DNA from: a virus
Reading direction: 5' to 3' (one strand)
DNA length: 21,901 nt
Virus record (IMG/VR): IMGVR_UViG_3300026479_000058
Coordinates: 1-21,901 of that record
Part shown: positions 16,657 to 21,901 of the stretch, in pieces
Numbering within the stretch: position 1 is the stretch's first letter
How the letters are laid out: each line of letters begins with the position of its first letter
Program-made: the position numbers and the translations under genes
The notes under the pieces: model-generated
Seen by the model: only the letters and a program-made list of their open reading frames with translations
What the model was told of the DNA's origin: nothing
The model's database searches: none

Positions 16657-16668
16657 GGACAAAGGGTA

Positions 16669-16905
16669 TACCTTTAGTGTTAAAAAGCCCTCCTGTGGGC
16701 GAACAACTAAGAGAAATAACAACCAGAAACAAGGAAAAGGACTAATATGAGGGAAATAAAGGAGCCCCCTCTTAGTGTACTAAGAGTGAACAATGAAATT
16801 AGTGTACTCTTAAACTACTAAGAATCTTTCTTTTAAGGTGGTTATTGGTAATAATTCCCCATAGTAAGGGACTGGGAGCCAGCTTTTAGTTTACCTTTAG
16901 TGTTA
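16669..16905 (+). repeat. TTAGTGT motifs, two inside a 14-bp direct repeat
   Basis: TTAGTGT occurs at 16674, 16772, 16799 and 16897. The outer two lie in the exact 14-mer TACCTTTAGTGTTA (16669-16682 and 16892-16905). The inner two share TTAGTGTACT. Four copies of a 7-mer in 230 bases are far above chance. They may be protein-binding sites or parts of phage promoters. Confidence 0.7.
16769..16786. repeat. perfect 7-bp inverted repeat around TGTA
   Basis: CTCTTAG (16769-16775), loop TGTA, then CTAAGAG (16780-16786). No T run follows, so it is more likely an operator or RNA hairpin than a terminator. It contains one of the TTAGTGT motifs. Confidence 0.7.
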
Positions 16906-16914
16906 CACCTATGG
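16896..16914 (+). promoter_or_regulatory. candidate phage RNA polymerase promoter, SP6-like
   Basis: TTTAGTGTTACACCTATGG resembles the SP6 promoter core (ATTTAGGTGACACTATAG) if two single-base insertions are allowed: TTTAG, G-T-x-ACAC, TAT-x-G. It lies after the large terminase, where T7 has phi-OR. GTTACAC (16902-16908) also forms a perfect inverted repeat with GTGTAAC (16921-16927), so an operator is an alternative reading. Confidence 0.3.
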
Positions 16915-17036
16915 TTCCAAGTGTAACTGTGGTCAGATAACCGTCAAGCTTATAATTAATGTGTTTTGTTGTTGACCTGTTCAACCTCAGGACACAGACT
17001 ACTCTTTATAGCACTCTTTGTTACGTGTGTGTGTGT

Positions 17037-17080
17037 GAAGGTCATCTCTGGGAATGCTCGGAGGTGGCCTTCTTTTTTTT
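17037..17080 (+). terminator. strong intrinsic terminator after the packaging genes
   Basis: GAAGGTCATCTCT (from 17037) pairs over about 13 positions, with a few G-T pairs, with GGAGGTGGCCTTC ending at 17072. Eight T follow at 17073-17080. It would stop late transcripts about 400 bases after the large terminase, or end a short RNA started nearby. A GT dinucleotide run precedes it (17024-17037). Confidence 0.9.
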
Positions 17081-17170
17081 GTCACGTATTGGGGCTACGC
17101 TTTGTGACGAGTGGTGAACGCCTTGGTTTTGTTGCAAAAATCTGAGACCCTGTCGTTATGTGAACGGCGA

Positions 17171-17208
17171 ACAATTCCCCCCAGACCCCTTCGAAAACCT
17201 CGAATTGT
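17171..17208. repeat. 7-bp inverted repeat ACAATTC / GAATTGT
   Basis: ACAATTC at 17171-17177 and GAATTGT at 17202-17208 are exact complements 24 bases apart. AATTGTC occurs once more at 17214-17220. This may be a repressor site or weak hairpin, and nothing identifies a binding protein. Confidence 0.45.
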
Positions 17209-17408
17209 CTCCAAATTGTCAACTATCACGTCCCCGCCCCTAAAAATAAGGGTTCAAGTCGCATAACACATGCCTTTTCAACCAACTACTATCATGTTGA
17301 ACGCCCGATGCTTTGTTCGCGTCTGTGTTTGTTTGCATGGGTTTTTTTTCGCACTCAGTTCACCAACAGTCACGCAATACTATCACATACGGTTCAAAAC
17401 ACGTCTTT

Positions 17409-17575
17409 TTCAAAAATTTTTTTGCTCCGCTCCTTCGTCGCTCTCTTATGTAGTTCCTCGCAGTATATACTCTATATTCTCAAAAAATTTTTTCCAGATT
17501 CCTCGCTCAGATTCTTAGAGTTATCAACATTCATCATTCTTAAAAAATTTTTCTCCGCTCGTTCCTCGCTCCGAC
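17409..17575. repeat. three diverged repeats headed by A5-6 T5-7 boxes
   Basis: Self-complementary A/T boxes start at about 17412, 17482 and 17542. Each is followed by related C/T-rich sequence. CTCCGCTC-x-TTC-x-TCGCTC is clearest in copies one and three, and ATTCCTCGCTCAGATTCTTAG in copy two resembles GGATTCTTAGG after copy three. The A/T boxes would bend or melt easily, which suits an origin, a genome-end region or a protein-binding array. Confidence 0.7.
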
Positions 17576-17670
17576 GGATTCTTAGGGTAGGCACCGTGCG
17601 TGGGCTCTGTGGGGACTACCGTCCCTACCTCCAGACTATGTGTTTTTATAGGTCGTTCCTCCCTTTTAAT

Positions 17671-17707
17671 AAAAAAACACAGAGTCTTCCTAGTAGTAGG
17701 CTCTGTG
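17671..17707 (-). terminator. terminator-like hairpin for - strand transcription
   Basis: CACAGAG (17678-17684) pairs with CTCTGTG (17701-17707), with an inner CCTA/TAGG stem around GTAG. On the - strand the hairpin is followed by seven T (the A run 17671-17677). No - strand gene is seen upstream of it, so it may block antisense or readthrough transcription, or work as an RNA structure in the + leader of the next gene. Confidence 0.55.
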
Positions 17708-17739
17708 GCTTAATTCTTCTCTCTTAATTCTTATATCTT

Positions 17740-17907
17740 ATGCAAAACACATCCAACGTACTCTCCGTCCACACACGTGGTGACTATGAATTCCTCTCGT
17801 TAGCTGACGGCACTGTGCAGGTCAATCTGCTCCTCCGTAACAACGAGTCCGTACCTTACGACGTACTGCCTGTTGCTGACGCTCGTACCTTCTGGTCATC
17901 TCTGTAA
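17740..17907 (+). CDS. small protein of unknown function, 55 aa
   Basis: ATG 17740 to TAA 17905-17907 encodes 55 aa starting MQNTSNVLSVHTRGDYEF. Codon use is rich in C-ending codons (aac, gac, ctc, acc, tac) like the following genes, which supports its being real. The sequence looks like a small beta-rich soluble domain (YEFLSLADGTVQVNLLL) with no signal peptide or membrane segment. It is the first gene after the 1.08-kb signal region, and its leader TCTTATATCTT has no Shine-Dalgarno. I do not recognise a family. It is probably co-expressed with the 78-aa gene 45 bases downstream. Confidence 0.7.
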   Translation: MQNTSNVLSVHTRGDYEFLSLADGTVQVNLLLRNNESVPYDVLPVADARTFWSSL

Positions 17908-17952
17908 CTTTTTTCTCGTAATAATAATAACATACATACATACATATACAAA

Positions 17953-18189
17953 ATGCAAAAACTAAACACTACATCCGCTCGCGTTATCTCCATCAACGGT
18001 AACGCTGCCGAACCAACTGCCTACGCTGTCGAAGCTGTGGCTTTCAAAGATGGTGACTTCTTCACTATTCCTACTCTCTGGCACAACAGCCGCACTGCTC
18101 CCAAGTTTGACGTTGGTGACGACATTTTGTTCGCTGACATCAAAGGTACAGACGGTGTTACTCGCAGTACACTTCTCGGTAAAGCGTAA
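17953..18189 (+). CDS. small protein of unknown function, 78 aa
   Basis: The 78-aa product begins MQKLNTTSARVISINGNAAE and contains DDILFADIKGTDGVTRSTLL near the end. No signal peptide, membrane segment or metal-site motif is visible, and it looks like a small beta-rich soluble protein. The first residues (MQ-x-x-N/T-T-S) recall the 55-aa protein before it, though the match is too short to prove a paralogue. The leader is a TAA/CATA microsatellite (about 17918-17948) and should be unstructured, with no Shine-Dalgarno. I do not recognise a family. Confidence 0.8.
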   Translation: MQKLNTTSARVISINGNAAEPTAYAVEAVAFKDGDFFTIPTLWHNSRTAPKFDVGDDILFADIKGTDGVTRSTLLGKA

Positions 18190-18251
18190 GCAAAACCACA
18201 AAACATAAACACGTAACAGTTTGCGGAGCTGCTCAAAACCGCCTTTTACAC

Positions 18252-18365
18252 ATGAAAAAACTAGTAACTATCATTCTCAGCGTACTCACTGCGCTGTCCA
18301 ACACTAACGCGGCTAACCAAGCTGCATCTGACGTACTTGCCAACTCTGGCATCGACACATACTAA
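18252..18365 (+). CDS. 37-aa protein with an apparent signal peptide
   Basis: ATG 18252 to TAA 18363-18365. The N-terminus MKKLVTIILSVLTALSNTNA has the three parts of a Sec signal: KK, an 11-13 residue hydrophobic core, and a polar end with Ala at a plausible cleavage point. Cleavage after residue 20 would release ANQAASDVLANSGIDTY, a 17-residue peptide with two Asp, two Asn and one Gln. Alternatively the whole protein stays as a single-span membrane peptide. The gene lies 20 bases before the amidoligase-like gene and is probably on the same transcript. A role as substrate of the neighbouring enzymes, superinfection exclusion peptide or lysis regulator are all possible. None is shown. Confidence 0.62.
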   Translation: MKKLVTIILSVLTALSNTNAANQAASDVLANSGIDTY

Positions 18366-18385
18366 TACCCAACCACACACATAAA

Positions 18386-19951
18386 ATGAGTAACATAACT
18401 ACACTAGAGCTCGAAAAGCTCACTATCGCAACCGAAGAACAACTCTCAGCTTTCTATGAAGGTGAAGAAAAAGTCTTAACAGATGCCTACGGTATAGCCG
18501 CAGGTATCAACAACTTAGTTATATATCGTGGATACCTGATACCAAAAACAATGGTATCTCCCGCACTAGATATAGATTCATTCTCTTTAAATGCAGAAAC
18601 ATTTGAAGAATATATTTCTAAATATACGTGGATTGAAACCGCAAATACCAACAGTTCAAGCAATAGATTACGTCATAAAACAGACTTTGAGTTATGCCAT
18701 GTCAACCTTAGGTACTATCCAAAAGAAAAACTGTGCGCACTAAGCGAAGAATACTACGACGAAAACTCCTATGCGCACGTCGATGAAACAGTTATGTGCG
18801 CTCAAGGAACGTACATAACACAAAGAGACTCAATACACGTCTACGGTCACTATGACCCCTTCCACGAAAACGACGACAATCTCACTTGGTCTGAACATCA
18901 CGACCAGTACTTACTAGATGAAGAAGTAGTCTACCCAATGGATGACGATTGTGTGCCATATCACCAAGATGCGGTGTATATGCACAACGGTACTCCATAT
19001 ACAAGTGAAGAAGCAGCCTTTAAAGGATGCATTCGTGACTATCACTGTACACCAGACGGCCATCACTTTCTCAAAGATGACCCAAATGACATCCTCTCCA
19101 AGTTCACCATTGGGTTTGAAGTAGAAAAGTCCTCAGTTGACGGTTACAGCGGATGCGGTGACCCTGTAGATGACGAAGCTTTGTTCGCTGGTTGGGAAAC
19201 CGACAGTTCATGCGGAGTCGAAGGAATCACTAACGTATACGGTCTCAACAACCTTGACGAATTCACTGACCACGTAGACAGCTCTTCATACGTCAACGAA
19301 GAAACCTCAAGCCGCTGTGGTGGTCATATCAACATCTGTGACAACACCAATTCTATCAAGTACTGGCACATCAAAAGCTGGTGTGGTCTCTGGTGGGCTA
19401 TGTACCGCAAACGTCTGCGTAACGACTACAGCGGAGGTAACAAAAAGGTATGCCCTTATGAGTCACGTGCTGGTCAACGTTACCAAGCCATCCGTGAAAA
19501 AAGCATCTGTGGAGGTAAACAACTGTTCGAGTTGCGCTTACCAAATCGAGTCCGAAACGGTGAACAACTCATACGTCGCTTCAAACTATCACAAACGTGG
19601 ATGCGCTGCATTCATGCCTTTGCTACCGAGGATTGGACATACTCAACTCAAAAATATACCGACGTTATCAAAGGTGTACCTGACTGGGCATATGACAACA
19701 ACAGTGAAACAGTAACAGCGCACCTCAAAGCCACAACAAACCTAATGGCAGACGTTCCTCCGCATATCTACAACCGTATGCGTTTCCTCATCGAGGGTTC
19801 AAAAGAGCAGCTGTTAGAAAGTTACGCTGACCAACCTCTAGGGTTACTAACAGTCATACGTCTGACGTACGCCTTTCAGGTGTTCATCGAAACAGAACGA
19901 TACGCTCCTTTACCAGACAGCATAAGCAGCGCAATTAACCAATACCTATAA
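18386..19951 (+). CDS. amidoligase_2-like protein (GS/ATP-dependent carboxylate-amine ligase fold)
   Basis: The 521-aa protein has a C-terminal half matching the pattern of the putative amidoligase family: GFEVE (243-247), a W-x-x-D-S-S...G-V-E block (GWETDSSCGVEG, 269-280), CGGHINI with H314 (311-317), an Arg/Tyr-rich stretch, and FELRLPN (381-387) before a helical end. The family is related to glutamine-synthetase-like and gamma-glutamyl-ligase folds and is predicted to join a carboxylate to an amine using ATP. The acidic pairs E245/E247 and E382 with R384 would bind metal-ATP. Residues 1-240 are acidic and Tyr/His-rich (HYDPFHENDDNLTWSEHHDQ) and not recognised. Their DNA (about 18400-18700) is more A/T-rich than the rest. 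The gene is followed 20 bases later by the amidotransferase/cyclotransferase fusion, a partnership that supports the assignment. Confidence 0.72.
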   Translation: MSNITTLELEKLTIATEEQLSAFYEGEEKVLTDAYGIAAGINNLVIYRGYLIPKTMVSPALDIDSFSLNAETFEEYISKYTWIETANTNSSSNRLRHKTDFELCHVNLRYYPKEKLCALSEEYYDENSYAHVDETVMCAQGTYITQRDSIHVYGHYDPFHENDDNLTWSEHHDQYLLDEEVVYPMDDDCVPYHQDAVYMHNGTPYTSEEAAFKGCIRDYHCTPDGHHFLKDDPNDILSKFTIGFEVEKSSVDGYSGCGDPVDDEALFAGWETDSSCGVEGITNVYGLNNLDEFTDHVDSSSYVNEETSSRCGGHINICDNTNSIKYWHIKSWCGLWWAMYRKRLRNDYSGGNKKVCPYESRAGQRYQAIREKSICGGKQLFELRLPNRVRNGEQLIRRFKLSQTWMRCIHAFATEDWTYSTQKYTDVIKGVPDWAYDNNSETVTAHLKATTNLMADVPPHIYNRMRFLIEGSKEQLLESYADQPLGLLTVIRLTYAFQVFIETERYAPLPDSISSAINQYL

Positions 19952-19971
19952 CACCACAACACACACACACT

Positions 19972-21024
19972 ATGTGCTTAATCATACACAAACCTAAAGC
20001 AGACTCCACCATTGCGGAGTTCATTCTCGACAACGCCGAACGCATCAATCCTGATGGCTTCGGTATCGTCTACACAGACACTAACGAATGCGTCCGCACT
20101 ATGGACTACGAAACAGCACGTGAGCTTATATCAGCTCCACGTCCCTTTGTAGCTCATTACCGCTACGCAACCCGAGGTACTATCAACAAACGCGGCTGTC
20201 ATCCATATGTCATCACAAGTATGTCACAAGACAGCGACAACATTGTTCGTCTCTTCAGTAACGGTACTGTTGCTGACCTAGGTGATGACAAGCTATGTGA
20301 CACCAAAGTTGTTGCACAAATGCTCATGCGTATACCCAGCCAACACTGGTCTGACGTACTCAGTATGACCGAAACTCGGTTTGCTATCTGTGACCAAAAC
20401 GGCGTACAACGTCACGGAGAGTGGCACGAACGCGACGGTGTCTGGTTCAGTAAAGCTAACTGCTTTCACAAGTCTTACAACAAGACTGTCGGTTACAGTT
20501 ACTCAGCTGACCACTATACCAGCCCGTACTCAACCAAGGCTTACGACCCGTACTCAACCAAGGCTTACGACAAGTACTGGTATGACGAGGACCTAATTGG
20601 TGACGAGGAAGAAGACATCAACAAACCTACTATCACAGACAACTGCACAGCTGACTGGCAAGACGTCAACCTTGTAGCCGTATACGGTACACTCAAAGCT
20701 GGACGCAGTAACCACAAGACAATGGGTCAAGCAACCCTAGTCGGAGCTGGTCAAACCGTCTACAAATATCCGATGCAAGTCTACTCTACCATTCCGTTCG
20801 TTTACGAGAAGCCCGGAGAAGGACATCAGATTGCCGTCGAAGTCTACGATGTACAATCCGAATTCACAAAAGATGACATCGACTGGCTCGAAGGACACCC
20901 ACACAACTACGAACGTAAACTAACAGACATCGAAATGGCTGACGGAGCCGTCAAGACCTGCTGGTTATACTTCGCCAACCCCTCGTATTACGAGCCAACT
21001 ATGACAAACATACAACGATACTAG
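19972..21024 (+). CDS. fusion of class-II glutamine amidotransferase-like and gamma-glutamylcyclotransferase-like domains
   Basis: The 350-aa protein has two domains. Residues 1-about 170 look like a class-II (Ntn-hydrolase) glutamine amidotransferase: Cys2 as N-terminal nucleophile after Met removal (MCLIIHKP), NPDGFGIVY, HYRYATRG (R64-G69), NG at 97-98 for the oxyanion site, and CDTKVV with D110. Such domains free ammonia from glutamine or hydrolyse amides. After an acidic linker with a duplicated PYSTKAYD, residues about 232-345 look like a gamma-glutamylcyclotransferase: VYGTLKAG (237-244), AVEVYDV with E290, and WLEGHPHNYER (305-315). That fold cleaves gamma-glutamyl amides with release of 5-oxoproline. 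The gene ends in TAG. Its leader is a CA repeat. With the upstream amidoligase it forms a make-and-break amide module, but the substrate is unknown. Confidence 0.82.
   Translation: MCLIIHKPKADSTIAEFILDNAERINPDGFGIVYTDTNECVRTMDYETARELISAPRPFVAHYRYATRGTINKRGCHPYVITSMSQDSDNIVRLFSNGTVADLGDDKLCDTKVVAQMLMRIPSQHWSDVLSMTETRFAICDQNGVQRHGEWHERDGVWFSKANCFHKSYNKTVGYSYSADHYTSPYSTKAYDPYSTKAYDKYWYDEDLIGDEEEDINKPTITDNCTADWQDVNLVAVYGTLKAGRSNHKTMGQATLVGAGQTVYKYPMQVYSTIPFVYEKPGEGHQIAVEVYDVQSEFTKDDIDWLEGHPHNYERKLTDIEMADGAVKTCWLYFANPSYYEPTMTNIQRY
20523..20570 (+). repeat. perfect tandem duplication of 24 bp in the fusion-gene linker
   Basis: Bases 20523-20546 and 20547-20570 are identical, so the protein carries PYSTKAYD twice, between the amidotransferase and cyclotransferase domains. 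Complete identity, including third positions, suggests a recent duplication or active slippage. Confidence 0.95.
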
Positions 21025-21025
21025 C

Positions 21026-21094
21026 TTAAACTTACTGTTAGCTTGGTGCTGCCTCCTCGGATGGCTAGTCATCATCGCCTCATCAGTAAGTTAA
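21026..21094 (+). other. hydrophobic +1-frame stretch inside an inverted repeat
   Basis: In the +1 frame relative to the preceding gene, 22 codons to TAA 21092-21094 encode an almost ideal membrane segment (AWCCLLGWLVIIASSVS). There is no ATG, GTG or TTG in this frame after TGA 21002-21004; the only near-start is CTG 21035. AACTTACTG (21029-21037) and CAGTAAGTT (21084-21092) are exact complements bracketing it. It may be a +1 frameshift tail for the fusion protein or simply chance. Confidence 0.3.
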
Positions 21095-21103
21095 ACACAC
21101 ACA

Positions 21104-21133
21104 GCCTCTAGCCTAACCGCTAGGGGCTTTTTT
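21104..21133 (+). terminator. intrinsic terminator closing the amidoligase cassette
   Basis: GCCTCTAGC (21104-21112) pairs with GCTAGGGGC (21119-21127), nine pairs with one G-T, loop CTAACC, then TTTTTT (21128-21133). It separates the amidoligase/amidotransferase genes from the right-end genes. Confidence 0.92.
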
Positions 21134-21329: not shown

Positions 21330-21551
21330 ATGACACCACTACATACAAGACCAAAAGAATACCGTAACTTATTTCAAGCTAACCGCATCTCTAATCGAGA
21401 GGGTAAAACTGAAGAAATGCTCGACAGAGAATACAACAAAGAAACCGCCAAGCTTATTGCAGAGGGACACAAGGCCTTCTGGAAGAAACGCGGGGTAAAC
21501 AAACCGCCATATGTATCAGACAGACAGATAGGTGTCTTCGATACGTTATAA
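21330..21551 (+). CDS. small basic protein of unknown function, 73 aa
   Basis: ATG 21330 to TAA 21549-21551 gives 73 aa, starting MTPLHTRPKEYRNLFQANRI. The frame is open further upstream to a TTG inside the terminator T run, but that part is a Pro/Thr-rich translation of C-rich repeats, so the first ATG is preferred. The product is helical and charged (REGKTEEMLDREYNKETAKL) with an aromatic-basic centre (KAFWKKRG), which would suit a small DNA- or RNA-binding or host-takeover protein. No family is recognised. No Shine-Dalgarno is present. Confidence 0.55.
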   Translation: MTPLHTRPKEYRNLFQANRISNREGKTEEMLDREYNKETAKLIAEGHKAFWKKRGVNKPPYVSDRQIGVFDTL

Positions 21552-21577: not shown

Positions 21578-21784
21578 ATGATACCTTCTGTTGTACTTGA
21601 TGCACGTGCCTAGAAAGATAGGTTAGCTCAAACATATTCAAAGAATCGAAGATTTGAATATCTAAAGGGAGGATTCACAAAACGCATTTATGCAATAATG
21701 TACTACCCAAACAGACACACACACGAAAGAATAGAAGATGAGTATAAGAAAGAGTGGGAAAAACGACAACAAGTTCATGGCTGA
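21578..21784 (+). pseudogene. small reading frame broken by an in-frame TAG
   Basis: ATG 21578 opens MIPSVVLDARA, then TAG at 21611-21613. The same frame then stays open for 56 codons to TGA 21782-21784, with protein-like composition (KDRLAQTYSKNRRFEYLKGG, later ERIEDEYKKEWEKRQQ). The only internal ATG is at 21698 and would give 28 aa. It could be a gene inactivated by a nonsense change, an amber-readthrough gene, or a 28-aa gene. The 3' end overlaps the integrase-like start by 47 bases. Confidence 0.35.
21635..21660. repeat. perfect 8-bp inverted repeat upstream of the integrase-like gene
   Basis: TATTCAAA (21635-21642) and TTTGAATA (21653-21660) are exact complements around GAATCGAAGA. It lies about 80 bases before the integrase-like start and could be an integrase arm/core site or an operator. 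No T run follows, so it is not a terminator. Confidence 0.55.
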
Positions 21785-21901
21785 CTTCATGGTCAAAGGC
21801 GTAAGATACCGCCGCCAATGGCCTACCTATGAGGAAGCAGCCGCGTGGGAGTCAGAGCTAAAAAAGAGAATACGCCTAGGGATACCCTACACGGAACTCT
21901 T
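21738..21901 (+). CDS. probable tyrosine integrase, N-terminal part only
   Basis: The frame from ATG 21738 is open to the window edge (54 codons). It reads MSIRKSGKNDNKFMADFMVK followed by GVRYRRQWPTYEEAAAWESE and a basic, amphipathic helix ending GIPYTEL. A short beta-hairpin with K/R residues, then a (F/W)-x-T-x-x-E-A-x-x-W-E segment, is the usual start of phage tyrosine recombinases (arm-site DNA-binding domain). The catalytic R-H-R-Y set would lie outside the window, so the call is not proven. Starts at 21777 or 21789 would avoid the overlap with the upstream frame. Several marine T7-like phages carry an integrase in the early region, which fits this place. Confidence 0.55.
   Translation, partial: MSIRKSGKNDNKFMADFMVKGVRYRRQWPTYEEAAAWESELKKRIRLGIPYTEL

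Follow-up and report, generated by a model that had tools for sequence, protein, structure and literature searches.

A two-gene phage cassette predicted for gamma-glutamyl-type amide chemistry: a divergent amidoligase beside a fused glutaminase-cyclotransferase

The window, i.e., the whole stretch of 21,901 nucleotides analysed here (IMG/VR record IMGVR_UViG_3300026479_000058, positions 1 to 21,901), carries a pair of genes that is a variant of the known amidoligase/glutamine-amidotransferase/cyclotransferase cassette; its novelty lies in the fusion of the glutaminase to the cyclotransferase and in the lineage of the ligase. Sequence comparison and structural models give good support to the prediction that the pair acts as a module in amide chemistry of the gamma-glutamyl type. 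Confidence is high for the classes of the enzymes and for the functional link between the two genes, while the whole statement, i.e., such a module acting early in infection on a peptide of the host envelope, is tentative. An initial annotation of the same DNA had proposed three enzyme domains and a make-and-break logic for amides of this type; both are supported, the former by profile or profile-profile matches, fold and invariant residues.

The ligase

The gene at 18386-19951 (+ strand) is intact and encodes a protein of 521 aa. From its sequence and fold, it is predicted, with good support, to be an ATP-dependent carboxylate-amine ligase of the glutamine synthetase (GS) superfamily, more precisely a divergent GS-fold amidoligase (AML). 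Single-sequence searches in Pfam, PHROG and NCBIfam gave no significant match, thus the assignment needs profile-profile and fold comparison. The Pfam model PF12224 (Amidoligase_2) matched neither the window ligase nor any of its 49 relatives, PADLOC gave no match with the ligase, and searching its sequence against solved structures returned nothing but an unrelated chance match. The profile searches that the initial annotation had called for thus recovered the two domains of the fused protein (see below) and left the ligase without a Pfam Amidoligase_2 match.

About 70 loci with relatives were collected from IMG/VR with an alignment of three sequences. The alignment of 49 relatives matched, by hhalign, a second phage group at 99.9% (E 4.3e-35) and, directly, an alignment of 9 phage Amidoligase_2 members at 94.1% (E 1.3e-7), these E-values being one-to-one and not database E-values. 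The members of the second group have weak matches to Amidoligase_2, and the group itself matched Amidoligase_2-type proteins at 97.1%. Against one lone Amidoligase_2 protein, the ligase alignment reached a probability of 1.2% only.

In the predicted structure, the catalytic core (residues ~210-521, about 19013-19948) is modelled at about 90 pLDDT; the N-terminal ~200 residues are of low confidence and of unrecognised fold. All of the top 50 solved structures matched by the model belong to the GS superfamily (Z 7.3-9.0), with GS, YbdK, PafA, Dop and GshA among them. The best Foldseek E-value is only 1.1e-3 and Z values of 7-9 are moderate, though a single superfamily fills the list.

The motifs GFEVE (243-247), CGGHINI (311-317) and FELRLPN (381-387), already named in the initial annotation, are present and, as judged from the alignment, far beyond chance. 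Residues E245, E247, E271, D273, S275, E279, C311-H314, R343, N352, E382 and R384 are invariant in the 49 relatives and follow the Amidoligase_2 motif order, i.e., ExE, DxS, GxE, H, ExR. This order is also that of the metal- and ATP-site motifs of GS, and we infer from the sequences that the residues may be equivalent to the GS sites. A GS-like fold and the retention of the ATP-binding acidic residues were the points on which the initial annotation had staked the ligase; the match to the GS superfamily was obtained and the acidic residues are invariant.

The ligase thus resembles PF12224 in its motif order (ExE, DxS, GxE, C-G-x-H, ExR), in its GS-superfamily fold and in the profile-profile match, and differs from it by a sequence that falls below the Pfam model and by the additional N-terminal part of ~200 residues. 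In one relative (L040, 407-1279) the frame is broken into two, either by a frameshift or by an assembly error. A scan of bacterial genomes returned one partial relative, on an Erythrobacter MAG contig, and no glutaminase or cyclotransferase match was found on the available DNA of that contig; the ligase family therefore looks almost confined to phages.

The fused protein

The gene at 19972-21024 (+ strand), 20 bases downstream of the ligase gene, is intact and encodes 350 aa; the coordinates and frames of both genes agree with those first reported. Its protein contains all the expected motifs, i.e., Cys2, NPDGFG, HYRYATRG and VYGTLKAG. Three parts can be distinguished: (i) a class II glutamine amidotransferase (Ntn) domain with Cys2 as nucleophile (residues 1-168, 20475 being its last base and 19972 its first); (ii) a linker of low confidence (residues ~169-226, 20476-20649, pLDDT <50); (iii) a GGACT-like gamma-glutamylamine cyclotransferase domain (residues 230-350, 20659-21021), assigned by profile, fold and active site. 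An exact tandem duplication of 24 bp in the linker (20523-20570) encodes PYSTKAYD two times.

The glutaminase domain matches the GlmS glutaminase (1xff) with a profile E-value of 1.7e-12, and its fold gives Z scores of 12.4 (GlmS) and 12.2 (EgtC). In its alignment with GlmS, the features of class II are found, i.e., a Cys after Met1, the Arg/Thr residues, the oxyanion pair Asn97-Gly98 and Asp110; C2, N26, R64, T67, N97, G98 and D110 are invariant in 27 relatives of the fusion. The domain shares with GlmS and EgtC the Cys nucleophile, R-x-x-T, NG, the D of the glutamine site and the Ntn fold, and fold scores do not distinguish a GlmS-like glutaminase from an EgtC-like hydrolase. Unlike GlmS, the fusion has no synthase domain: a short glutaminase of ~165 residues is joined to the GGACT-like domain.

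The cyclotransferase domain matches PF06094 with an E-value of 1.5e-18. Its nearest solved relative is GGACT (Z 17.6 vs. 10.8 for GGCT and 9.9 for ChaC2), the human enzyme (3jub) being superposed over 118 residues with an rmsd of 1.6 A. With the human and mouse enzymes (A2LD1; 3jub, 1vkb) it shares the fold, the active-site series Tyr/Gly/Thr/Leu/Glu/Tyr/Tyr and ~29% identity; in contrast to them, it sits behind a glutaminase domain in one chain. Structure prediction, proposed at the outset as a check on both proteins, thus returned the GS superfamily for the ligase and the GlmS/EgtC and GGACT folds for the fusion.

The active site was mapped with the residue list published for GGACT (PMC2954230). 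Y238, G239, T240, L241, E307, Y313 and Y333 are invariant in the 27 relatives, and the equivalent of GGACT Ile50 is I or L. The initial annotation had taken E290 as the catalytic residue, which has to be corrected: by alignment to GGACT, the catalytic Glu is E307 (in LEGHP), equivalent to Glu82, whereas position 290 is E or D across the relatives. The substrates are gamma-glutamylamines in the case of GGACT, gamma-glutamyl derivatives in that of GGCT and glutathione in that of ChaC (PMC7022552). Since the domain is closest to GGACT, a gamma-glutamyl amine is, from sequence kinship, the likely class of substrate.

Most relatives of the fusion (L014, L017, L018 and others) have an extra, third part at the C-terminus, i.e., a CxxC...YxCxxC tail that probably binds zinc. 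This tail is absent from the window fusion and from its nearest relatives.

Linkage of the two genes

Linkage was examined in both directions. Starting from the ligase alone, 70 loci gave 54 clusters at 90% identity. The fused protein was found in 37 of these 54 and a glutaminase without cyclotransferase in 11 (one of which, L044, is truncated at the contig end); the other 6 have neither partner and lie on contigs that stop at most 1.1 kb downstream. A same-strand glutaminase was near the ligase in all clusters with enough flanking DNA (48/48). In nearly all cases the partner follows the ligase on the same strand, at 3 bases to about 4.9 kb downstream; in L047 the glutaminase is upstream of a ligase of the 49-relative type and flanked by two ligase genes. 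Starting from the fusion alone (79 loci), a same-strand ligase was found upstream in 68, the remaining 11 having <2 kb of upstream DNA, i.e., in 68/68 loci with enough upstream DNA. The two sets have contigs in common and are thus not independent. The view that the two large genes form one unit, put forward in the initial annotation, holds in both directions.

In 9 of the 68 loci, e.g., in phage C75C1, the ligase has its better match in the Amidoligase_2 alignment and not in the new lineage. The ligase thus appears exchangeable, since the fusion is found with enzymes of either kind, new lineage or ordinary Amidoligase_2. This sharing of one cutting partner by two ligase lineages is what speaks most strongly for the new lineage being a true amidoligase.

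The pair is under purifying selection, with dN/dS values mostly of 0.03-0.22; the values between the window and its nearest relative L006, e.g., 0.14 for the ligase, are near saturation. Between L048 and L050, the ligases are 99% identical and the fusions only 85%, an unequal divergence that suggests separate exchange of the two genes. Four loci (L068, L073, L076, L077) have two different amidoligases on either side of one glutaminase, on one strand and with no cyclotransferase match.

A pairing by chance, i.e., neighbours or decaying host genes with no joint role, has no argument of weight in its favour: it would agree with the distance between the genes, which reaches about 5 kb in part of the relatives, and with the unequal divergence in L048/L050, but is practically dismissed by invariant active sites, by purifying selection and by the finding that the two genes are linked at each testable locus, whichever of them is taken as the start.

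Genomic context

Judged from its genes, the virus behind the 21.9-kb window is a T7-like phage of bacteria, in agreement with the phage context first proposed. The window encodes a tail tube, a nozzle, gp13- and gp14-like internal virion proteins, a large internal virion protein, a tail fibre, a small terminase, an HNH protein and a large terminase, the last with at most 71% identity to marine autographivirids (Ayaqvirus S45C18, Roseobacter and Pelagibacter phages). The contig ends within the start of a putative integrase gene (21738-21899, + strand; weak PHROG integrase match, E 0.021), the position and beginning of which resemble those of the integrase in G010, the near-complete 42.5-kb contig of L010. 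The gene order of G010 is terminase, small genes, ligase, fusion, integrase, T7-type RNA polymerase and replication genes; in Ayaqvirus, another gene set occupies the interval from terminase to integrase. Since in G010 the ligase-fusion pair is located between the terminase and the integrase/RNA polymerase, it is probably expressed early, and most likely sits, from gene order, in an early region.

Three small genes (55, 78 and 37 aa; 17740-18365, + strand) lie upstream of the pair. The initial annotation had counted them with the cassette and had named fixed co-occurrence in related phages as a check, which did not hold: they are present only in the window, in L005 (same sequence) and in L006, and L010, in which terminase and pair are the same, has unrelated small ORFs in their place. 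They are thus neighbours and not parts. As peptide substrates or cassette members they were ruled out, not being conserved beyond L006.

On the other side of the pair, a terminator-like hairpin (21103-21128, stem of 10 bp) with a T tail (to 21133, + strand) is present as described initially, and plausibly ends the pair, as read from its sequence; its weight as a terminator is reduced by a scan of the window that found 5 such elements vs. 4.2 in shuffles, i.e., no excess. An unannotated ORF of 73 aa (21330-21551, starting MTPLHTRPKEYRNLF) is located 5' of the integrase; its counterpart in L006 (9883-10110) is clear, that in L010 only possible.

Phage promoters or the genome ends may lie in the ~1.1 kb with no clear genes that follows the terminase (16657-17739). 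This region contains two exact copies of a 14-base sequence (TACCTTTAGTGTTA, at 16669 and 16892), a strong hairpin resembling a terminator (17037-17072) and, at 17406-17552, three repeats rich in A/T. Most genes of the window, including both cassette genes, have no Shine-Dalgarno sequence; A/C-rich leaders, e.g., ACACACACACT, are found 5' of the ATG and may hint at the host group. The Rfam search of the window gave zero matches.

Relation to known cassettes

A «peptidoglycan modification cassette» composed of amidoligases, glutamine amidotransferase, ATP-grasp and gamma-glutamyl cyclotransferase has been described (PMC5498523, PMC10580990, PMC3890496). It is listed for RIO-1-like phages, PSA-HP1, phiEco32, relatives of LUZ24/tf/PaP3 and CW02, and attributed to Iyer 2009 and Hardies 2013 (as cited in PMC5498523); phage amidoligase cassettes are on record since at least 2009. 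The initial annotation had not named this cassette, which is the closest known system. The role proposed is the modification of peptidoglycan or of the cell surface (PMC5498523, PMC10580990), with the blocking of superinfection as purpose (PMC5498523, PMC10580990, PMC3890496). In an evolution experiment with a Pseudomonas phage, missense mutations were reported in the amidoligase gene as well as in the glutaminase gene of both evolved lines (PMC11450229); these mutations would hint at a joint role of both genes in the interaction with the host. The accessible, mostly non-subscription literature contains no description of the fused protein or of the new ligase lineage, and no demonstration of an enzyme activity or substrate for any cassette member.

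The window pair resembles this cassette in that an amidoligase, a class II amidotransferase and a cyclotransferase are close together on one strand; the genes of the cassette are often near replication genes. It differs in that (i) the glutaminase and the cyclotransferase are one protein; (ii) the ligase belongs to a separate lineage missed by Pfam Amidoligase_2; (iii) the phage is T7-like. A search of 12 relatives with the RimK model as only probe gave no ATP-grasp gene of this type, the window being a fragment.

Related gene sets are present in Pseudomonas phage Bjorn, Vibrio phage 1.293.O, CW02 and Arthrobacter and Geobacillus phages. Phage C75C1 (OQ984151) and the Manatee Spring phage (MW202828) have the same fused protein with an amidoligase 5' of it; unlike the window pair, C75C1 has an ordinary Amidoligase_2 and small genes in between. 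Neither pair is treated as a system in the literature found. The Manatee Spring phage (L001, 964-2854) also has genes annotated GroES and GroEL.

Proposed mechanism and alternative explanations

In the mechanism we propose, the ligase would use ATP to phosphorylate a carboxylate, which would then be joined to ammonia or an amine; from glutamine, ammonia and glutamate would be provided by the glutaminase domain; the cyclotransferase domain would take gamma-glutamyl groups off amines as 5-oxoproline and thereby trim wrong or old products. Early in infection, the module would alter a host envelope peptide, in the first place the peptidoglycan stem peptide or its cytoplasmic precursor, and the cell surface or wall would be changed, e.g., against superinfecting phages. 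The envelope peptide is a possible target that falls short of being probable and is suggested by analogy; since it rests mainly on published proposals, it is to be taken as the best available guess. Against it, genes for envelope proteins, lipoproteins or RimK-type ATP-grasp enzymes, which accompany some relatives, are absent next to the pair, and the chemistry of GGACT fits small gamma-glutamylamines at least equally well as a wall peptide.

One alternative is the metabolism of small amines, where the ligase would gamma-glutamylate a polyamine or another amine and the fusion would reverse or recycle the product, freeing amine and 5-oxoproline for replication or packaging. PuuA gamma-glutamylates putrescine, and the ligase has the fold common to GS, GmaS and the amine-ligating GS enzymes. 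The GGACT type of the cyclotransferase is also in favour, GGACT acting on gamma-glutamyl groups joined to alkylamines (PMC7022552). However, making and breaking the same small amide is futile unless both are separated in time, the constant presence of the glutaminase domain is left unaccounted for, and no polyamine gene was seen adjoining the pair. We regard this explanation as unlikely, though of some weight.

Reversible protein tagging, with the ligase putting glutamate or a peptide on lysines of host or phage proteins and the fusion removing it (cf. pupylation/depupylation), is distinctly improbable. The structural neighbours of the ligase include PafA and Dop, but GS, YbdK and GshA are just as close. 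GGACT acts on a bond of the gamma-glutamyl-epsilon-lysine type, which suits such tagging, although the source used for the substrate classes itself says gamma-glutamylamines (PMC7022552). The C-terminal CxxC...CxxC tail of most fusion relatives could bind a macromolecule, but it is the window fusion that does not have it, and no conserved small protein accompanies the pair. A more specific version, i.e., a write-and-erase system in which the ligase would reversibly gamma-glutamylate protein lysines of host or phage and the fusion would control the glutamine supply and erase the mark, has a slim chance.

The likely early position of the pair, its location in a variable region and its wide spread among unrelated phages would suit a role in counter-defence or host signalling, where a small defence or stress molecule (amine or carboxylate) would be destroyed or capped early in infection. 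Since PADLOC gave no match and since ligase, glutaminase and cyclotransferase exceed the needs of simple destruction, we hold such a role to be doubtful at best.

Some relatives are near replication genes, and amino-acid and amide chemistry on bases occurs in some phages, so that the pair might put amino-acid or amide groups on modified bases. Neither in the window nor in annotated neighbours was the pair seen to adjoin a gene for a base hydroxymethylase, a kinase or the like, and DNA or nucleotide hypermodification is very improbable.

Significance

In this phage, the cassette is cut down to two genes with fixed linkage, the bond-cutting partner being fused, so that expression and assay of the complete set are feasible. 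A testable prediction comes from the active site: being of the GGACT type, it restricts the bond to be expected to that of a gamma-glutamyl amine. Finally, the new ligase lineage is missed by Pfam, PHROGs and NCBIfam, and many unannotated phage genes could be named with it.
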